From assembly GCA_947447265.1 (NCBI GenBank), contig CANFKC010000003.1:62001-126000 (forward strand): DNA of 64,000 nt. The letters are read 5' to 3'. Numbering within the stretch: position 1 is the stretch's first letter; the number at the start of each line of letters is the position of its first letter. Origin of the DNA: Chitinophagaceae bacterium (GTDB taxonomy: Bacteria > Bacteroidota > Bacteroidia > Chitinophagales > Chitinophagaceae). The notes below the pieces were generated by a model. That model was not told the DNA's origin. It searched no databases and saw only the letters and a list, made by a program, of their open reading frames with translations. Shown in pieces: positions 7,574 to 15,900 of the stretch. Made by a program: the position numbers and the translations under genes.

Positions 7574-8305
7574 TTACTGGAAAAATGAGCGCACCCATTC
7601 GTCTTCAGAGTTTGATAATTCTTTAAATGTCCCTTCTGCGGCTGTTATACCGTTTTTTATTACCATCATGCGGTTGGCTGTAATGCGTGCACATTCTACA
7701 TCGTGCGTTATTATTATGGCTGCGGCATTGTATTTTTTCTGCACATCAAGTATCAGTTGGCTGATCTCTTTCGATGTGATGGGGTCAAGCCCGGTTGTAG
7801 GTTCGTCATATAAAATAATCTCGGGTTTCATGATGAGTGTTCGCGCCAGTCCGACTCTTTTTCTCATACCACCGGAAAGTTCCGATGGCATTTTGTCTAT
7901 GGCTTCTTCCAAACCCACATTCTGTAATGCCTCCCTCACCAGTTTTTCGTTATCTTCTTTCGATCCTTTTTCCTTTAGTCCGCGTAAAGGGAACACCAGG
8001 TTTTCCCTTACCGTCATAGAATCATACAATGCGGCACTTTGAAAAAGAAAACCGATTTTTTTGCGCACTTCGTTCAGTTCGTCATCTTTCAGTTCCGCAA
8101 TGTTTTTACCCAGGAGTGTAATTTCGCCGCCGTCCGGCGCTAACAGTCCGACCAGACATTTTATGAGTACCGATTTTCCAGTACCTGATTTTCCGAGTAT
8201 GACCAGGTTTTCACCTTTTTTAAGCGTGACGCTGATATCTTTCAAAACTTCTTTTGTACCGAAAGATTTTTTCAGGTGCTTTATTTCTGCTACTATATCT
8301 TCCAT
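7574..8305 (-). CDS. ABC transporter ATPase, MlaF type
   Basis: A 243-residue ATPase driving MCE-type lipid transport. Visible: Walker A GKSGTGKS (about residues 37-44), Q-loop FLFQSAALYDSMTV, signature LSGGMRKRVGLART, Walker B IILYDEPTTGLDP and the switch ITHDVE. The signature LSGGMRKRV and the length are typical of MlaF rather than importers. The gap to mlaE is 2 bp and to mlaD 21 bp, which strongly supports one transcript. Confidence 0.93.
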   Translation of the reverse strand: MEDIVAEIKHLKKSFGTKEVLKDISVTLKKGENLVILGKSGTGKSVLIKCLVGLLAPDGGEITLLGKNIAELKDDELNEVRKKIGFLFQSAALYDSMTVRENLVFPLRGLKEKGSKEDNEKLVREALQNVGLEEAIDKMPSELSGGMRKRVGLARTLIMKPEIILYDEPTTGLDPITSKEISQLILDVQKKYNAAAIIITHDVECARITANRMMVIKNGITAAEGTFKELSNSEDEWVRSFFQ

Positions 8306-8307
8306 AA

Positions 8308-9135
8308 TCAGTTATAAATTAGGGTGGTTACCTGTACAGCTATCATGTCAATAATAAATACGCACAATGAGCCGATCACAACAGCTGAGTTGGCGGCTTC
8401 GCCTACGCCCTCGGTGCCTTTATTTGAATTATAACCTTTAAAGCAACCGATGATGCCTATTGCAAGACCAAACACAAACGTCTTTATGGTTGCGGGAATC
8501 ACATCTGCAAATTCCAGTTTTTCAAAAGCCTGCAAGAAGTATAGGTGAAAGCTCACATCGCCTTTAATGTTTACGCCCACGTAGGATCCGTAAAGACCTA
8601 TTGCGTCAGATATAATAACCAATACGGGTAGCATAAGCATGGCGGCCATTACGCGGGTAACGACAACATAATTGAATGGATTGATTCCGGAAACTTCCAT
8701 TGCGTCTATCTGCTCGGTAACTTTCATTGACGCCAGTTCTGCGCCGATACCCGAGCCTACTTTGCCAGCAAATATTAGTGCGGTAATAACCGGACCAATT
8801 TCGCGCACAATTGAAACAGATACCATTGCCGGGATCCAGGATTCTGCGCCAAATTCTGAAAGGGTAGGGCGCGATTGTATAGTTAATACAAGCCCCATAA
8901 TAAAACCAGTAATACCCACGAGTGGCAAGGTTTTATATCCTATGAGGTAGGCTTGTTTGGCAAATTCTTTAAACTCGTATGGTGGCTTTATTAATTCTCT
9001 GAAGAAATGGCCGGTAAACTGCGCTATGCCGGCAACCTCTTCAAAAAACAGTTTGAACGCTGAAGGTGAGGCTTCTTCTTTTGCGGGTGCTTTACCTGCA
9101 ACAGCACTATGGAGTATCTGATCGTCTTTTGACAT
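8308..9135 (-). CDS. MlaE-type lipid ABC transporter permease
   Basis: A 275-residue permease with five to six membrane helices. It contains the MlaE family core FIMGLVLTIQ, then VREIGPVITALIFAGKVGSGIGAE and ASMKVTEQIDAMEV, the conserved cytoplasmic coupling region. An N-terminal extension of about 35 residues precedes the first amphipathic helix. It stands between an AI-2E family permease (upstream, 53-bp gap) and mlaF (2-bp gap). Predicted role: inner-membrane core for moving phospholipids between the membranes. Confidence 0.93.
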   Translation of the reverse strand: MSKDDQILHSAVAGKAPAKEEASPSAFKLFFEEVAGIAQFTGHFFRELIKPPYEFKEFAKQAYLIGYKTLPLVGITGFIMGLVLTIQSRPTLSEFGAESWIPAMVSVSIVREIGPVITALIFAGKVGSGIGAELASMKVTEQIDAMEVSGINPFNYVVVTRVMAAMLMLPVLVIISDAIGLYGSYVGVNIKGDVSFHLYFLQAFEKLEFADVIPATIKTFVFGLAIGIIGCFKGYNSNKGTEGVGEAANSAVVIGSLCVFIIDMIAVQVTTLIYN

Positions 9136-9188
9136 TTTGTGTTGTTTGATTAAGGTAAATGCTAACGGTGCTGGCAGGTGTTATTACT

Positions 9189-10301
9189 TTAGCTTGATTG
9201 GTTGGCAATAACTGTAAAGTTTGCTTTTGATACCGGTAGTATAAGTGGTTTCTTTATTACGTTGCCAAGTACATGGCCCCATGGTTTCAATGCTTCCACG
9301 TGGTCGCATATAACCTTGATTATTGCCGTGACGGGTATGGCGAGGAACATGCCTCCAAAACCCCACAAAGCTCCACCCGCAAGTACTACAATAATAGACA
9401 CCAGTGCATTGATCTGAACCTTTGAAGCTACTACCTTCGGTATAATGTAGTGGTTGTCTATAAACTGGATGATAAGATAAGAGACGAGCACCAGCAGCGC
9501 ACTCGATGGTGATTTGTTAGCTATGGCTAGTATCATAGGCATTGCTACCGCGATGATGCCACCTATATAAGGAATCACGTTTAGCAGTGCGCCAATTACA
9601 CCAAGCAGTATGGCATAGTCAACGCCTATTAATAACAAGCTTCCGGAATTAAGCGTCGCTACTATTATAGCTTCCAACATAAGGCCAACGAGATAGCTTT
9701 GTATAATTGTTTTGGTAGTCTTTAAGATATCATTGATGGCGGCATGCTTGCTGTGGCTGAAAAGTTCATGAATAAACTCAACCAGCAGAGGTTTGTAAAA
9801 TAATACCAGGAAGGTATAGACCGGTATCAGGAAAACAACTACTAATACGTTACCGATGTTGACGATGGTACGGCCAATCATCATTTTGCCGGTTTTGGCA
9901 ATTTCTGAGTTGGCTTCATTTACCCACCCGTGAACGGTGTCTATCCGGATGTTGAATTTTTCGGACACCCAGATGCTCATATCGTGCACCATAATGTTGA
10001 ATTTTTCAGTCAGCGCAGGAACAGAATCGCTGAACATTCCCATTTGGGAGGTGAGCACCCCTACAATAGAAAGTGAAGTGATGATAACAATGGTTAATGT
10101 TAAAGAAATAGCGATTACACGATTCACTTTTCTCCTCACAAAAAAATTGACGACGGGGCCCAATACAATGGCCAGTAGTATGGAGTAGATGATGGGAACT
10201 ATAATACCTTGCGCAATGTATAGCATGGCGAAAAAGGCCAGCATGCCAACACAGATAAGTGTAATTTTTGCGTAAAGTGGTATTTTTAAAGCTGCGTTCA
10301 T
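9189..10301 (-). CDS. AI-2E family transporter (PerM/YhhT-like)
   Basis: A 370-residue integral membrane protein. Helices cluster at the N-terminus (about 6-65) and in the C-terminal two-thirds, with the family signature GVIGALLNVIPYIGGIIA and the later FIDNHYIIPKVVASKVQINAL. The frame is open back to 10373, but the ATG at 10301 gives the natural family start (MNAALKIPLYAKITL). Members are trimeric exporters or Na+/H+ antiporters; the substrate is unknown. It is the first gene of the run leading into mlaE, mlaF and mlaD. Confidence 0.9.
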   Translation of the reverse strand: MNAALKIPLYAKITLICVGMLAFFAMLYIAQGIIVPIIYSILLAIVLGPVVNFFVRRKVNRVIAISLTLTIVIITSLSIVGVLTSQMGMFSDSVPALTEKFNIMVHDMSIWVSEKFNIRIDTVHGWVNEANSEIAKTGKMMIGRTIVNIGNVLVVVFLIPVYTFLVLFYKPLLVEFIHELFSHSKHAAINDILKTTKTIIQSYLVGLMLEAIIVATLNSGSLLLIGVDYAILLGVIGALLNVIPYIGGIIAVAMPMILAIANKSPSSALLVLVSYLIIQFIDNHYIIPKVVASKVQINALVSIIVVLAGGALWGFGGMFLAIPVTAIIKVICDHVEALKPWGHVLGNVIKKPLILPVSKANFTVIANQSS

Positions 10302-10396
10302 CGTAAGTGTAAAATTGCTTTTAAAGCATTGATATACTCTTACACGACTATGGGAAAAAATTACATTATTCACACGTAAGGCATACCTAAAATGAA

Positions 10397-10424
10397 AAAG
10401 AGGCTCCTAACTGAGAGCCTCTTT
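10397..10424. terminator. Perfect 10-bp GC-rich hairpin terminator
   Basis: AAAGAGGCTC (10397-10406) pairs with GAGCCTCTTT (10415-10424), with an 8-nt loop. It is a strong intrinsic-terminator shape with A/T flanks on both sides. It lies upstream of the AI-2E gene start and downstream of the minus-strand open frame at 10453-10793. This implies that something transcribed from the right ends here. Confidence 0.75.
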
Positions 10425-10452
10425 CGTAAAAAATGAGTTATTGCGTTTCAAT

Positions 10453-10793
10453 TCACCATGTAGGTTTCAATTGTCTCCGGGAAAACATGCTGTACATTTT
10501 ACGATGATCTATTTTAGCATTTGCATTTATGAGGTTGCCGGGATTTATAGAATTGAAGAAACGGTAGTGAGGATTGTTAATAGTTAGCACTAGAGGAACA
10601 CGGAAAGTATAGAACGCAAAAAAGTATTTGTCGATTTCTTCTTCGCGGGTGCAGGCGGCGGTTCGTGCAGGCGCGCCATAAAGGTGAGTAGCAGGTCGTG
10701 CTTTTGCTGGCGCCTTGTTGTCCTCCCTTTGTTGCGGTTTGTAGTTGAAAATATTACAGCAAGGTTTGGTGGTTGGTTGAGTGAGGTTTTCAT
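10453..10793 (-). pseudogene. Possible small gene split between two frames, unknown
   Basis: Two minus-strand frames abut. From ATG 10793, one reads MKTSLNQPPNLAV... to a stop at 10590-10592. An overlapping frame, shifted by one, is open through REEEIDKYFFAFYTF (about 10620) to a stop at 10453, with a protein-like tail (LINANAKIDHRKMYSMFSRR). Joining them near the GAAGAAGAAA stretch around 10635 would give about 112 residues. The strong terminator just downstream supports a transcription unit. No family recognised. It may also be non-coding. Confidence 0.3.
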
Positions 10794-10982
10794 AACATAA
10801 GTAATTTATTTGCTGAATAATTTTGTTTAGCTTTTTATCATGTTTGCTACAGAACAAAGTTGCGATGCAGATGGCGGTAATATGTTACACTGTAAAGGCA
10901 AAAAATTATAAGATTTACATTCCCTCTTAATAAATCGGAAAACAAATAGCCGAAACGTATTTTTTATACTTTTGGAGTAGGC

Positions 10983-11300
10983 TCAGGCTGCAATATTCCC
11001 GATTTTGCTGAGCATACTTTCTATAATAACCATTGCGTAGCGGTCGTGTTTTACATCCATAAGTTTGCAGAGCTGGTAAAATGCCATCGCCTCGGTTGCA
11101 CTAAGGGTAAGTGTGTATATCTCCTGCCCCTTTCTTGCCATCTGCAGCAATTTATATTTTAACTCACCCAGATAGGCCTGTAACAATTCCTGGTGCTCGT
11201 TTACCGGTCGAAAAGAGGCCAGCATGGTATCGCAAACTTCCACCATGGCTTCTAAGCGCTGATGGCTGATGCGAATTCCAATACTTCTTTTCTTATCCAT
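10983..11300 (-). CDS. Small helical protein linked to the DnaA-domain protein
   Basis: A 105-residue soluble protein, mostly helical (RLEAMVEVCDTMLASF; LLQAYLGELKYKLLQMA; TEAMAFYQLCKLMDV). No family recognised. Its start codon at 11300 lies inside the last 49 bases of the DnaA domain IV-like gene (stop at 11252), so the two are translationally coupled and probably act together. Nothing obvious follows for about 125 bp. Confidence 0.7.
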   Translation of the reverse strand: MDKKRSIGIRISHQRLEAMVEVCDTMLASFRPVNEHQELLQAYLGELKYKLLQMARKGQEIYTLTLSATEAMAFYQLCKLMDVKHDRYAMVIIESMLSKIGNIAA

Positions 11301-11713
11301 TTGTTTACCGATTTTAGCGCAGTTTCATATTTAAGGGTGAATTTCTCATCTCCTGCTGCCAATAGCATGGCAGCACGCGAAATGCCGTTGATGACAGAGG
11401 TATGATCCTGCCCGCCAAAAAGAACAGTAATATCATGTAAGGTGATACCCGGGAAAAACGAACGGAGCAGTGACGCGGCAATGAAGCGCAGATCAACAAA
11501 ATCCCTTTCACGCGATTTTACTTTATAGCAGGCTACATCCATACCTATTGCATCTGCTATCACTCTCAGCATTTGCTCTGGTGTTTTTGAGGTGTGGTAA
11601 TCGGGGCAAAGCACCAGCGTAACCCTCATGCCGGTTTTATTCATAATTTGTTGCTCTGCGGCACGCGTAATGTGCCTTGCGTCGTTTACTTGCTGCGGTA
11701 CTGTATAATTCAT
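11252..11713 (-). CDS. Stand-alone DnaA domain IV-like DNA-binding protein
   Basis: The ATG at 11713 gives 153 residues. Residues 75-112 match the helix-turn-helix of replication initiator DnaA domain IV: RFIAASLLRSFFPGITLHDI followed by FGGQDHTSV, corresponding to the DnaA signature FGGRDHTTV that reads the DnaA box. No AAA+ ATPase domain (no Walker motifs) is present, so it cannot be an initiator by itself. It may bind DnaA boxes as a regulator or competitor. It is divergent from an S24 repressor and has a well-formed promoter (TTTG-N21-TATATTTG, 11790-11822). It overlaps the following 105-residue gene by 49 bp. Confidence 0.8.
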   Translation of the reverse strand: MNYTVPQQVNDARHITRAAEQQIMNKTGMRVTLVLCPDYHTSKTPEQMLRVIADAIGMDVACYKVKSRERDFVDLRFIAASLLRSFFPGITLHDITVLFGGQDHTSVINGISRAAMLLAAGDEKFTLKYETALKSVNKWIRKEVLEFASAISA

Positions 11714-11789
11714 ATTTGCTGATTTACATGTTTTTTGGAAAAGTTGCCATCGAATAGTATTTTTGACACAGAAATAAACAATTGCACTA

Positions 11790-11822
11790 CAAATATACTC
11801 CAATTAATTTGACGATTCCAAA
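11790..11822 (-). promoter_or_regulatory. Bacteroidota-type promoter for the DnaA-IV-like gene
   Basis: Read on the minus strand: a -33 element TTTG (11822-11819), 21 bp, then the -7 element TATATTTG (11797-11790). This matches the Bacteroidota consensus TTTG-N19-21-TAnnTTTG. The expected start is near 11784, giving a leader of about 70 nt to ATG 11713. Confidence 0.7.
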
Positions 11823-11835
11823 TTTTGTGACAAAA
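11823..11835. promoter_or_regulatory. Palindromic operator candidate, TTTTGT-G-ACAAAA
   Basis: A perfect 6+1+6 palindrome directly beside the -33 element of the leftward promoter and 6 bp before the rightward -7 element. Position and symmetry fit the binding site of a dimeric XRE-type repressor, presumably the S24 protein encoded from 11855. One base change in either arm would break the symmetry. Binding is inferred. Confidence 0.5.
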
Positions 11836-11841
11836 TAGTTT

Positions 11842-11849
11842 TAACTTTG
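11842..11849 (+). promoter_or_regulatory. TAACTTTG -7 element of the repressor gene
   Basis: A perfect TAnnTTTG element ending 5 bp before ATG 11855. If used, transcription would begin at or within a few bases of the start codon, giving a leaderless or near-leaderless mRNA. No good -33 TTTG is found 19-21 bp upstream; TTTG at 11824 is only 14 bp away and lies inside the palindrome. Confidence 0.45.
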
Positions 11850-11854
11850 CTGTT

Positions 11855-12700
11855 ATGTATCTATCGGCCAATCTGAAATATTTAAGAAAGAAAAGCGGTA
11901 AAACGCAGGACGGGCTTAGCGCTGAGCTTAAAATAGGCCGGACTACAATTGCCAATTACGAATCGGGTATTAGTGAGCCGAACGTAGAAACACTTTGTGC
12001 TTTTGCCAAACATTTTAATGTTTCAGTTGATGACCTTGTGTCAAAAAATCTGGAAGTTGATGCTTTAATTATCAATGCTGCGGAAACAGGGCAGCCGTTT
12101 ATTGACCCTAAAGCCAATAAAACAGGAACCTTTACCGGAGTGCCTCGAGTAATTACTGTAGACAAAGAGGGGATAGATAACATTATATATGTTCCGGTAA
12201 AAGCGCGCGCCGGCTACCTGCTGGGTTATGGTGACGCAGAATTTATGGAACAACTCCCTACTTTCCGTCTGCCGGGCCTAAGCAATGCCACTTATCGTAT
12301 GTTTGAAGTTGAAGGCCCGTCAATGGCGCCAAACATACTGAATGGCGATAGGTTAATAGGAGAATGGGTGGAAAACCTAAATGATATACGCGATAACAGG
12401 GTATATATAGTAGTGCATTCTGGCGGGGTTGCGGTAAAAAGGGTGATCAACCGCCTGAAGGAACGTGGTAAATTATACCTGAAGAGTGACACGATTGCCC
12501 ACAGGCACGATTTCCCGACCATTGAAATAGATCCGGCTGACATCAGCGAAATATGGTATGGCCGGCTGAAGATAAGCAGTGATTTCAGCGAGCCTTCGGA
12601 AGTGTACCAAAGATTGGGCGACCTGGAAATGGATATGCTGGAGCTAAAGCAGAAATTAACGCCGGGAGACCCTACAATTAGCCTTAAAAAGCCTGACTAA
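11855..12700 (+). CDS. XRE-family repressor with S24 (LexA-like) peptidase domain
   Basis: 281 residues. The N-terminal helix-turn-helix (about 4-62, with KIGRTTIANYESGISEPN as recognition region) is joined by a linker to a LexA/CI-type S24 domain. Catalytic Ser156 lies in EGPSMAPN and Lys195 in GGVAVKRV. An Ala119-Gly120 pair in VKARAGYLLG is a plausible self-cleavage site. The protein ends in a short coiled-coil-like tail after residue 240. It is divergent from the DnaA domain IV-like gene, with a palindrome between them. This suggests a cleavable autorepressor releasing the neighbour under DNA damage; the induction is inferred, the domains are seen. Confidence 0.9.
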   Translation: MYLSANLKYLRKKSGKTQDGLSAELKIGRTTIANYESGISEPNVETLCAFAKHFNVSVDDLVSKNLEVDALIINAAETGQPFIDPKANKTGTFTGVPRVITVDKEGIDNIIYVPVKARAGYLLGYGDAEFMEQLPTFRLPGLSNATYRMFEVEGPSMAPNILNGDRLIGEWVENLNDIRDNRVYIVVHSGGVAVKRVINRLKERGKLYLKSDTIAHRHDFPTIEIDPADISEIWYGRLKISSDFSEPSEVYQRLGDLEMDMLELKQKLTPGDPTISLKKPD

Positions 12701-12742
12701 TAAAATAAAATGGTCCACATTAAAAAATGGCTGTTTTTCGCC

Positions 12743-12762
12743 TGTTGATAAGTTGTTGATAA
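12743..12762 (-). repeat. Tandem pair of DnaA-box-like sites
   Basis: The 9-mer TGTTGATAA occurs at 12743-12751 and 12754-12762; read on the minus strand both are TTATCAACA. This differs at one position from the DnaA box TTATCCACA. The starts are 11 bp apart, one helical turn, so the two sites face the same side of DNA. The pair lies 43 bp after the repressor gene and upstream of susC. Confidence 0.45.
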
Positions 12763-12956
12763 GGCCATCAGGACTTTTTTTTAACAAAAGCCCCAAAAAG
12801 CGCACTATTGTTAAGAAAAATGCAAAGAAGGCTTTGTTAATTCAATATCTTGATATAAATTCACCCCCCAATTGACTCTAAGTGGCTTAAACCGCCATGG
12901 AGGACTATTATTTTAAGAGGATACACCACTGCAATTTTTAAAGAAAAACAAACAGT

Positions 12957-15900
12957 ATGAAAAGAACTTTGTTACTATTTGTATTACTGCTTTCAGTTAG
13001 CATAGGAGCTTTTGCTCAAACGCATAACGTTACAGGTAAGGTATTAGACGAACTCGGTAAAGGCTACCAGGCCGCCGGTGTTTCGGTAAAAGGTACTGTA
13101 ATAGGAACTATTACAGATGCAAACGGAGATTTCAACTTAGATGTTCCAGATGGCAAGCAAACGCTTGTTTTCCAGGCTTTAGGTTACAATACTGTTTATG
13201 TAAGAGATAGCGGCCAGTCTGAAATAGTGGTTCGTCTTACCCTGAATGCAAGAACGTTGGAAGGTGCTGTGGTTACAGCGCTTGGCGTAAAAAGGGAAAA
13301 GCGTGAAGTAGGTTTTACTTCAACTACTGTAAGTGGTGAAGAACTGACTGCAGGTAACAATACAAGTGTTATTTCGGCTTTACAGGGTAAAGTTGCAGGT
13401 GCTAACATCAGCAGCTCTACAGGTGGTCCTGGTGGTTCTAGCCGTATCATCTTACGTGGTGAAAAATCAATCAACAAAAACAATAACGCCTTAATGGTTG
13501 TTGATGGTGTTATCACTAACAACTATGACCGTAGGTTAGGTAACTCTGATGCAACACAGTCATTAACTGATGTTGACTTCGGTAATAGCGGAAACGATCT
13601 TGACCCGGATGAAATTGAGTCTATCACAGTTCTGGAAGGTCCTGCTGCTGCTGCGCTTTATGGTGAAAGGGGTGCTTTTGGTGCGGTAATGATCACTACC
13701 AAGAAAGGTAAGCGTCATGAAAATAACAACAAAGCAAGCAAATTCGATATCACTTACAAAGCTACTTTCACACAGTCTGACATCTTAAAATTTGCTAATC
13801 TTCAGCATCAATATGGTCAGGGTAACCTTTACGCTGGTATAACTGACGACCGTCGCGAAAACTTTAGCTGGGGTTCACCATTCGATAACGCACTTCGTCC
13901 ATGGGGTCAGGTAATTGATGGCAAACAATTAGTAAAGCCATATTCTGACCAGCCTAACAACGTTAAAGACTTCTTTAACCATGGCCAGAATCTGAATAAC
14001 TATGTTGCATTATCAGGCGGTAGCGAAAACAGCACTTACTTCCTTTCCTTAAATGCATTGAACAGCCAGGGTGTTGTACCAAACACATTCTATAATAAAT
14101 ATAGCATGCGTTTCAACGCTACTACACAGTTCAGCAATAACTTCTACTCTAGTATCAACGTTAACTACATCAATTCTTATTCAAGGGCTGCATCTGGTGG
14201 ACAAGGTACTGGTTCTGTTTTGAGCAACCTTTACCAGACTGCACGTGACATTCCAGTTTGGGAATTGAAAGATCTGGAAAACAAATACTATTCAATGCAG
14301 TTCTATGACACTTTAGGTGTTGAAAGGTATGGTTATTATAATGCTTATTACAAAAACCCATATTGGGCTTCTAAATACTACGATAACCGCAACAAGACCG
14401 ACAGGTTAATGGGTGATGTTAACGTTGGTTTCAAAAAAGGAGCTTTCAATGTAGTTGACAGGTTAGGTCTTGACGTTTCTGATGACAGGACTACTTATAA
14501 GACTCCAACAAGCAATGCATCTCCGGTTGATGGTTTTTATTCTGGAAACCTTTACCAGAACAAAGGCGGCTTCGCTCAGTACAACAGTACTTTCTTTACT
14601 ATGAACAATGACCTGATGGTTACTTTCGCTCATGAAATGGGTAAAGATTTCGGTATCAACGTTCTTGCTGGTCATAACGCATCAATAACTCAAAGTGAAG
14701 CATTGAATGCTACAATCGATCCTTCAATTGGTTTGGTAATACCTAACTTCTACTACTTGGGCAACAATGCTGGTCCGTTGACTGCACTTAACCCAATCAG
14801 CAAAAGAAGGAGCCATGGCGTTTACGCTGACGTTAAATTAAATTTCCGCAGGGAATTATTTCTGGAGTTAACAGGCCGTAACGAATGGAGTTCAACTTTA
14901 CAGTTCGACCACAACTCATACTTCTATCCAGGTGCTAACGCATCATGGGTATTCACTGAAAGGTTGAATGGTACTAAGTTCAAGAAAAATGTAATGAACT
15001 ACGGTAAGATCCGGTTCGCTGCATCTGGTGTTGGTTCTTCAGGTATTGCTTATGCAAACAACCCTGCAGTTTATAGCCAAAGCGCAATCGTATCTGGTTT
15101 CGGTAGCATCCAGCCTCCGTTCAATGGTGTTCCAGCTTACTCTATTGGCTCTACATTCGGCCCTGCTAACCTTAGGCCTGAAAGGACCCGTGAGTTTGAA
15201 ATGGGTGCTGAACTTTCTTTCCTGAACGATCGTATCAGTACTGCATTTACTTACTATAACAACCTTACAATTGACCTGATTACAGCGGCACCATTGCCTC
15301 CGTCAACTGGTTTAGGTTTCCATTATCTTAACGTAGGCGATATCTCTAACAAGGGTGTTGAATTAAGCATGCGTGGTACGCCAATCAAAACTAAATGGGG
15401 TTTAACATGGGAGTTGTTCGGTACCTATACACGTAACAAAAACAATGTTGAGCGTCTTACAGGTGGCTTAGAGAATGTTGTTTTGGGTGGTACTAATGAT
15501 ATGGCTATTGTTGCTGCAGTTGGTCATCCAATGGGTACTTTCTTTGGTAATGATATTGCTTACCACGATGGTCATGCAGTTGTTGATGCTGCAACTGGTT
15601 TACCAGTAGCTACAAAAAAAGCTGTTTACAAAGGTTCTTACCAGCCGCGTTTCATTACTTCATGGGGAACTGACCTTACCTGGAAAGGCCTGAAATTACA
15701 TGCATTATTTGTTTGCAAACAAGGCGGACAGTTCTACTCAAAAACAAAGAGCGATATGGATTTCAACGGTACTTCAGAGATTACTACTGTTAACAACCGT
15801 AATCCTTATGTATGGAACAACTCTGTTAATCAGGTTGGTAACACAAACAACTACGTTAAAAATACAACTGCATTCTCTCCTTATGATTATTATGTAAATG

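Follow-up and report, generated by a model that had tools for sequence, protein, structure and literature searches.

Closest described systems

The closest precedents for the locus described here are the non-canonical LexA of the Bacteroidetes (Sanchez-Osuna 2021, PMC8565304) and FddR of Francisella (PMC13148647). The Bacteroidetes LexA, for which its authors proposed a phage origin, joins a CI-type helix-turn-helix (HTH) to an S24 domain with the Ala-Gly/Ser/Lys residues, and has an N5-spaced dyad in its own promoter (PMC8565304). FddR is a co-opted phage S24 repressor in a self-contained unit, and its control covers both its own gene and a divergently transcribed one. It comes from a different phage lineage, has the operator GTG-N11-CAC and has been shown to be induced by damage (PMC13148647); its main target is uncharacterised, with DinB in paralog units.

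In the Mu-like phages of Bacteroidota (hankyphage, PMC12135933; also L110, L113, L115-L117 and L039 in our set), a repressor stands at the end of an early region with MuA and MuB, and the Mu-like prophages examined here also carry a gene for DnaA domain IV (DnaA-IV). None of the inducers tried on the Bacteroides hankyphage, which has a CI-like repressor, induced it (PMC12135933), so damage induction does not follow from the presence of such a repressor in a Mu-like phage. The literature that we searched, with incomplete coverage, contained no description of an S24/DnaA-IV cassette such as the one below. An earlier note on this DNA had likewise known of no system with the exact layout; our search agrees with this for the cassette itself, but LexA and FddR are close precedents.

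Genes and proteins of the locus

The window is the whole stretch of DNA that was analysed, 64,000 nucleotides from a Chitinophagaceae bacterium. Four of its genes are considered here:

10590..10793, minus strand: 67-aa late cassette gene (TRRQQKHDLLLTFMA motif), still kept in the window
10983..11300, minus strand: 105-aa gene, overlapping the DnaA-IV gene by 49 bp (11252-11300)
11252..11713, minus strand: stand-alone DnaA domain IV protein, 153 aa
11855..12700, plus strand: HTH_3 + Peptidase_S24 repressor, 281 aa

The coordinates, residues and 49-bp overlap given in the earlier note were exact, and both Pfam domains that it had proposed to search for, Bac_DnaA_C and S24, were found (1.2e-9 and 6e-8). 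Bac_DnaA_C (PF08299) matched residues 45-112 of the 153-aa protein, and its score of 38.5 bits was above the family cut-off of 31.5. A profile built from 57 relatives of this protein retrieved solved DnaA chains from the PDB (8btg, 4e-12; 1j1v, 2e-9). The AlphaFold2 model (pLDDT >90 in the core) had DnaA, and DnaA domain IV on DnaA-box DNA, as its best Foldseek matches; it aligned with 1j1v, in which domain IV is bound to a DnaA box, at TM 0.87 and rmsd 1.8 A, and with 3pvp at TM 0.83. The fold predicted beforehand for residues 70-112 was thus recovered, and profile and model together indicate that the DnaA domain IV is genuine. It was the only domain found by Pfam, the AAA+ ATPase domain being absent as the note had said. 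We therefore rejected the idea that the protein is a full DnaA initiator, the genome's real DnaA being encoded at G000:C27. Compared with DnaA, the window protein shares the fold and most DNA-contact residues of domain IV, but lacks the AAA+ and N-terminal DnaA domains and has extra flanking helices (N-terminal 6-27, C-terminal 123-152).

The E. coli contact residues R399, R407 and H434 correspond to R68, R76 and H104, whilst the equivalents of T435 and T436 are T105 and S106, the latter a conservative change. Both the fold and these residues suggest that the protein reads DnaA boxes. R76 and H104 were kept in all of the 73 cassette DnaA-IV proteins. As residue 105 is Ser or Ala in 24 of the 73 and the T436 equivalent is mostly Ser, the DNA specificity or targets of the cassette proteins may have drifted. 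Stand-alone DnaA-IV proteins of 95-220 aa are also encoded by many unrelated viral contigs (L040-L074), those tested having no good PHROG match, and stand-alone DnaA-IV is apparently a widespread, unnamed phage gene. At another locus (L263:149-442) a 97-aa DnaA-IV protein (Pfam 1e-11) is encoded near an S24-family gene (247 aa, G205) on the opposite strand.

The divergent S24/XRE repressor, also as previously described, matched HTH_3 (3e-14) as well as Peptidase_S24. Its Ala119-Gly120 cleavage site stands 36 residues ahead of Ser156, which forms the dyad with Lys195, and the A-G, Ser and Lys residues were invariant in 75/75 cassette S24 sequences; by analogy with the Bacteroidetes non-canonical LexA, this suggests that the repressor can cleave itself. 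The window S24 is 52% identical to the repressor of the Mu-like prophage L113 and only 34-37% identical to CTAA-group LexA. In an S24 tree the cassettes clustered together, except that the window had the long-branch repressor of prophage L113 as its neighbor; this placement is probably an artefact, judging by pairwise identities (50-52% to the best cassette matches). Only two S24 proteins are encoded in this genome, one for each of its S24/DnaA-IV loci.

The third gene had been called small and helical. Its size and overlap were borne out (the overlap is 49 or 22 bp in most cassettes), but "helical" holds only in part, since the structural model of the 105-aa protein is a twofold beta-alpha-alpha repeat. 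Its family alignment has 50 members. No PDB or viral fold match was obtained at E < 0.001; Pfam matches to GAPES4 and ORC6 were below the cut-off and were discarded. The 67-aa gene is 56% identical to the copy at L035 over 41 aa (tblastn, 4e-11). PADLOC gave matches for the HTH and the generic ATPase only.

Contig C5 of this genome carries a second locus, apart from the first (L025:15978-18576), which has the order S24 | DnaA-IV - 113 aa - Mu Gam and holds the sole Gam of the genome. The repressor there has the S24 half in common with that of the window, whilst the DNA-binding HTH half differs.

Probable Mu-like origin and distribution of the cassettes

The earlier note had treated the three genes as a free-standing layout. 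They belong instead to what looks like the remnant of a Mu-like early region, most relatives having MuB, Gam and small genes as well. Using PHROGs and Pfam to identify MuB, Gam and MuA, we found the relatives' layout to be S24 | MuB - DnaA-IV - 105 aa - Mu Gam - ~67 aa - often DUF4406, with a MuB-type ATPase (PHROG 296, 5e-41) and Mu Gam (PF07352, 3e-25). Several Chitinophagaceae genomes (L110, L113, L115-L117) and an IMG/VR contig (L039) have a phage form, whole or partial, of the order S24 | Ner - MuA - MuB - X136 - DnaA-IV - 105-aa-like - Gam. Because these phage-form loci carry it, DnaA-IV is, on gene content, an early gene of Mu-like transposable phages, lying near MuB. At the window locus, too, a phage-type repressor is divergent from the early operon. 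The origin and layout of the locus are thus very probably those of a domesticated, transposase-less early/immunity region of a Mu-like phage.

A scan of one genome per species gave 61 loci, most of them cassettes with an S24 65-81% identical to that of the window, in Flavipsychrobacter, Taibaiella and related Chitinophagaceae. Counting those fetched from relatives, the cassettes analysed here come to 55 distinct ones; among them is that of the cultured Flavipsychrobacter stenotrophus RB1R16 (L135/L034), which has MuB and Gam. Recurrence of the gene set in relatives, on which the earlier note had staked its reading, was therefore observed. In contrast to Mu-like phages, the reduced cassettes contain no MuA, Ner, X136 or virion genes. 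Their flanks also recur, with a photolyase on one side and GNAT or SusC on the other, and are shared within and between genera, which suggests that the cassettes occupy fixed chromosomal positions. DnaA-IV was present in every cassette whose sequence extends far enough, and was kept in several separate lineages that lost MuB; the window lineage has lost both MuB and Gam, with no trace of either at the window locus.

S24 and DnaA-IV were retained in every case, and this extends to further reduced loci belonging to two more genera. Those of G149 and G219 read S24 | DnaA-IV or S24 | DnaA-IV - 105-like, and those of G106, G185 and G534 read S24 | (Ner, X136) - DnaA-IV - Gam, in both cases without MuA or MuB; the DnaA-IV assignment in the latter group is weak by Pfam (0.005-0.08). 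The reduced loci L287 and L289 adjoin phage-like genes, whilst at L288 (G149) the S24/DnaA-IV pair stands alone amid ordinary chromosomal genes with CTAATTAAATTAG between, a CTAA-N5-TTAG site type published for Bacteroidetes LexA (PMC8565304).

A DNA photolyase was seen within a few kb of the cassette in many species (L030, L032, L035, L107, L139, L149, L152, L154, L159 and L160), and MutL follows S24 in L109/L179. The sole match in the annotated phage collection, MT835860, was set aside as a misfiled bacterial dnaA region.

Operators, promoters and DnaA boxes

A predicted 15-bp operator motif, TCCAA-N5-TTGGA-like, recurred at three fixed positions upstream of S24, and promoters were sought with the Bacteroidota-type pattern TTTG-N19-22-TAnnTTTG. 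The sites in the window are:

11725..11739, plus strand: operator O3, TACATGTTTTTTGGA, 12.2 bits; motif near -130 in almost every one of the 55 cassettes
11734..11765, plus strand: predicted S24 promoter, TTTG-N20-TATTTTTG; its -33 element lies within O3
11790..11822, minus strand: predicted early promoter, TTTG-N21-TATATTTG, Bacteroidota -33/-7; both O1 and O2 overlap it
11799..11813, plus strand: operator O2, TCCAATTAATTTGAC, 17.0 bits; motif at -55 in 54/55 cassettes
11817..11831, plus strand: operator O1, TCCAAATTTTGTGAC, 20.9 bits; motif at -37 in 55/55 cassettes
12040..12054, minus strand: operator-like site within the S24 coding sequence, TCCAGATTTTTTGAC, 17.5 bits
12743..12762, minus strand: two perfect DnaA boxes in tandem, TTATCAACAACTTATCAACA, directly after the S24 gene and ahead of a SusC-like one

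A predicted early promoter lay under O1/O2 in 48 of the 55 cassettes (0.04% of shuffles), and a predicted S24 promoter under O3 in 31 (0.25% of shuffles). O1 outscored O3 in 46/55. Three operators over two divergent promoters suggest a logic like that of lambda OR, and we consider it likely, from this layout, that S24 controls the divergent operon. The tandem O2-O1 was unique in the genome and single sites were at background (186 against 193 in the control), so no regulon is visible beyond the cassette. Synonymous variation across the 55 cassettes was reduced at S24 codons 62-66 (and 50-54), coinciding with operator-like sites. Within the region 11912-11935 (codons 20-27), almost none was seen at codons 20-22 (G.G CTT AGC), which do not match the operator.

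These sites also separate the repressor from its precedents. Where Bacteroidetes LexA binds CTAA-N5-TTAG or GGA-N5-TCC, the window operator is TCCAA-N5-TTGGA, and the partner is a DnaA-IV operon; a scan for canonical SOS genes under the window operator, a weak test as it used the motif only, was at background. Because of its identity, its operator and the lack of a detectable SOS regulon, the window S24 was not filed as Bacteroidetes LexA. With FddR it has in common a phage S24 repressor with predicted operators covering both itself and a divergent gene, but its predicted target is the DnaA-IV operon.

The TTATCAACAACTTATCAACA tandem is the sole exact copy in the genome. It occurs at the same place in G002/L027 and not in other cassettes, and no conserved DnaA box was found in cassettes outside the window and G002. 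DnaA boxes were accordingly rejected as a feature of the cassette; the tandem is a possible local target of the DnaA-IV protein, its membership of the system being uncertain. A weak near-minimum of cumulative GC skew was seen at ~70-75 kb of contig C3 (window ~8000-13000), and the best gene-strand switch on the contig falls exactly at 11855, the repressor start. No proximity to oriC is claimed, since a lower skew minimum lies elsewhere and the strand score was reached by 304/2000 shuffles.

Selection on the cassettes

S24 was the slowest-evolving gene (dN/dS 0.003-0.07 across cassettes), with values of 0.009-0.20 for DnaA-IV (0.033 for the window against G002) and mostly 0.04-0.16 for MuB and Gam. 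In the window/G002 lineage the 105-aa gene was much faster (pN 0.30) than in other pairs of comparable synonymous distance. The MuB of the cassettes keeps the Walker-A GKT/S, and Asp or Asn almost always replaces the Walker-B Glu usual in phage MuB (e.g. L030:9958-10809), which is a consistent change and not decay. By sequence comparison, purifying selection still acts on S24, on DnaA-IV and on the operators. The arrangement is more than chance: it was found in 55 distinct cassettes, and their dN/dS values lie far below 1.

Alternative explanations

The slow evolution of S24, the conserved operators and the presence of Mu-like prophages in two genomes of the genus could mean that the repressor was retained for immunity against superinfecting or resident Mu-like phages, with DnaA-IV a passenger through the shared promoter. 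We think this unlikely: the early genes, including DnaA-IV in the window lineage, are also strongly constrained, the S24 proteins differ in those intact prophages that were examined, with no cassette operators seen upstream of their repressors, and MuA was absent from 9 of 11 genus genomes, several of them incomplete, this one included. Domestication of the operon for a damage response by Gam (Ku-like) and MuB, with the window a decaying remnant, would fit the Mu Gam and MuB of most cassettes, the characteristic Walker B Asp-for-Glu of that MuB, the photolyase adjoining many loci and the ability of Gam to promote NHEJ (literature cited in PMC8987985). It too seems unlikely, because S24 and DnaA-IV are constrained at a window locus without Gam or MuB, the genome's only Gam being in the second locus, and several other lineages without MuB kept DnaA-IV.

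A global SOS repressor orthologous to Bacteroidetes non-canonical LexA would share the domain plan and the N5-spaced dyad operator, and the genome has no S24 beyond that of the second locus; given the closer identity to a Mu-like phage repressor than to CTAA-group LexA, and operator sites elsewhere at background, we regard this as very unlikely. Cassettes and CTAA-group LexA showed an apparent mutual exclusion that looked strong, on which we did not rely because the genomes are related and additional S24 proteins occur in some of those with cassettes. It is most improbable that the cassettes are phage satellites borrowing the transposase of a helper Mu-like phage. Such elements might keep repressor, MuB and Gam without MuA and be patchy across genera, as here, but the shared flanking genes already weaken this reading, a helper's MuA is missing from those same nine genus genomes, and a non-exhaustive search identified no packaging or end sequences.

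Proposed function and significance

Taken as a whole, the explanation that we favor, and hold to be rather probable, is that a domesticated Mu-like early region has been kept as a self-contained, repressor-controlled unit. S24 dimers on O1 and O2 would block the early promoter and keep the DnaA-IV, 105-aa and 67-aa genes silent, and at higher levels S24 would fill the weaker O3 and limit its own synthesis, as in lambda. Upon DNA damage, RecA filaments would cause S24 to be cut at Ala119-Gly120, which would free the operon; from the residues of the repressor, we lean slightly toward such damage induction. The released protein, having a box-reading helix and no AAA+ domain, would then occupy DnaA boxes or related sites, where it could dampen initiation or alter transcription. 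Competition with DnaA at its boxes is the simplest reading, which we offer tentatively, and any effect on replication is inferred. In the phage, DnaA-IV plausibly served replicative transposition or early regulation.

It is a more doubtful proposal that a phage-derived, damage-released DnaA-IV acts as an initiation brake or DnaA-box regulator where canonical LexA is lacking, in effect an ATPase-free damage checkpoint working through box occupancy. The locus nevertheless presents a phage early control region that has been captured and retained in many species, its lambda-like operator arrangement unbroken, and the target that persists most is the DNA-reading domain of DnaA, without its motor. 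If damage-inducible, it would form a minimal and directly testable link from DNA damage to DnaA-box occupancy. It would also, after Francisella FddR, make the second example of a phage repressor unit at work in bacteria for which no LexA has been found, and would bear on how SOS networks are rebuilt.
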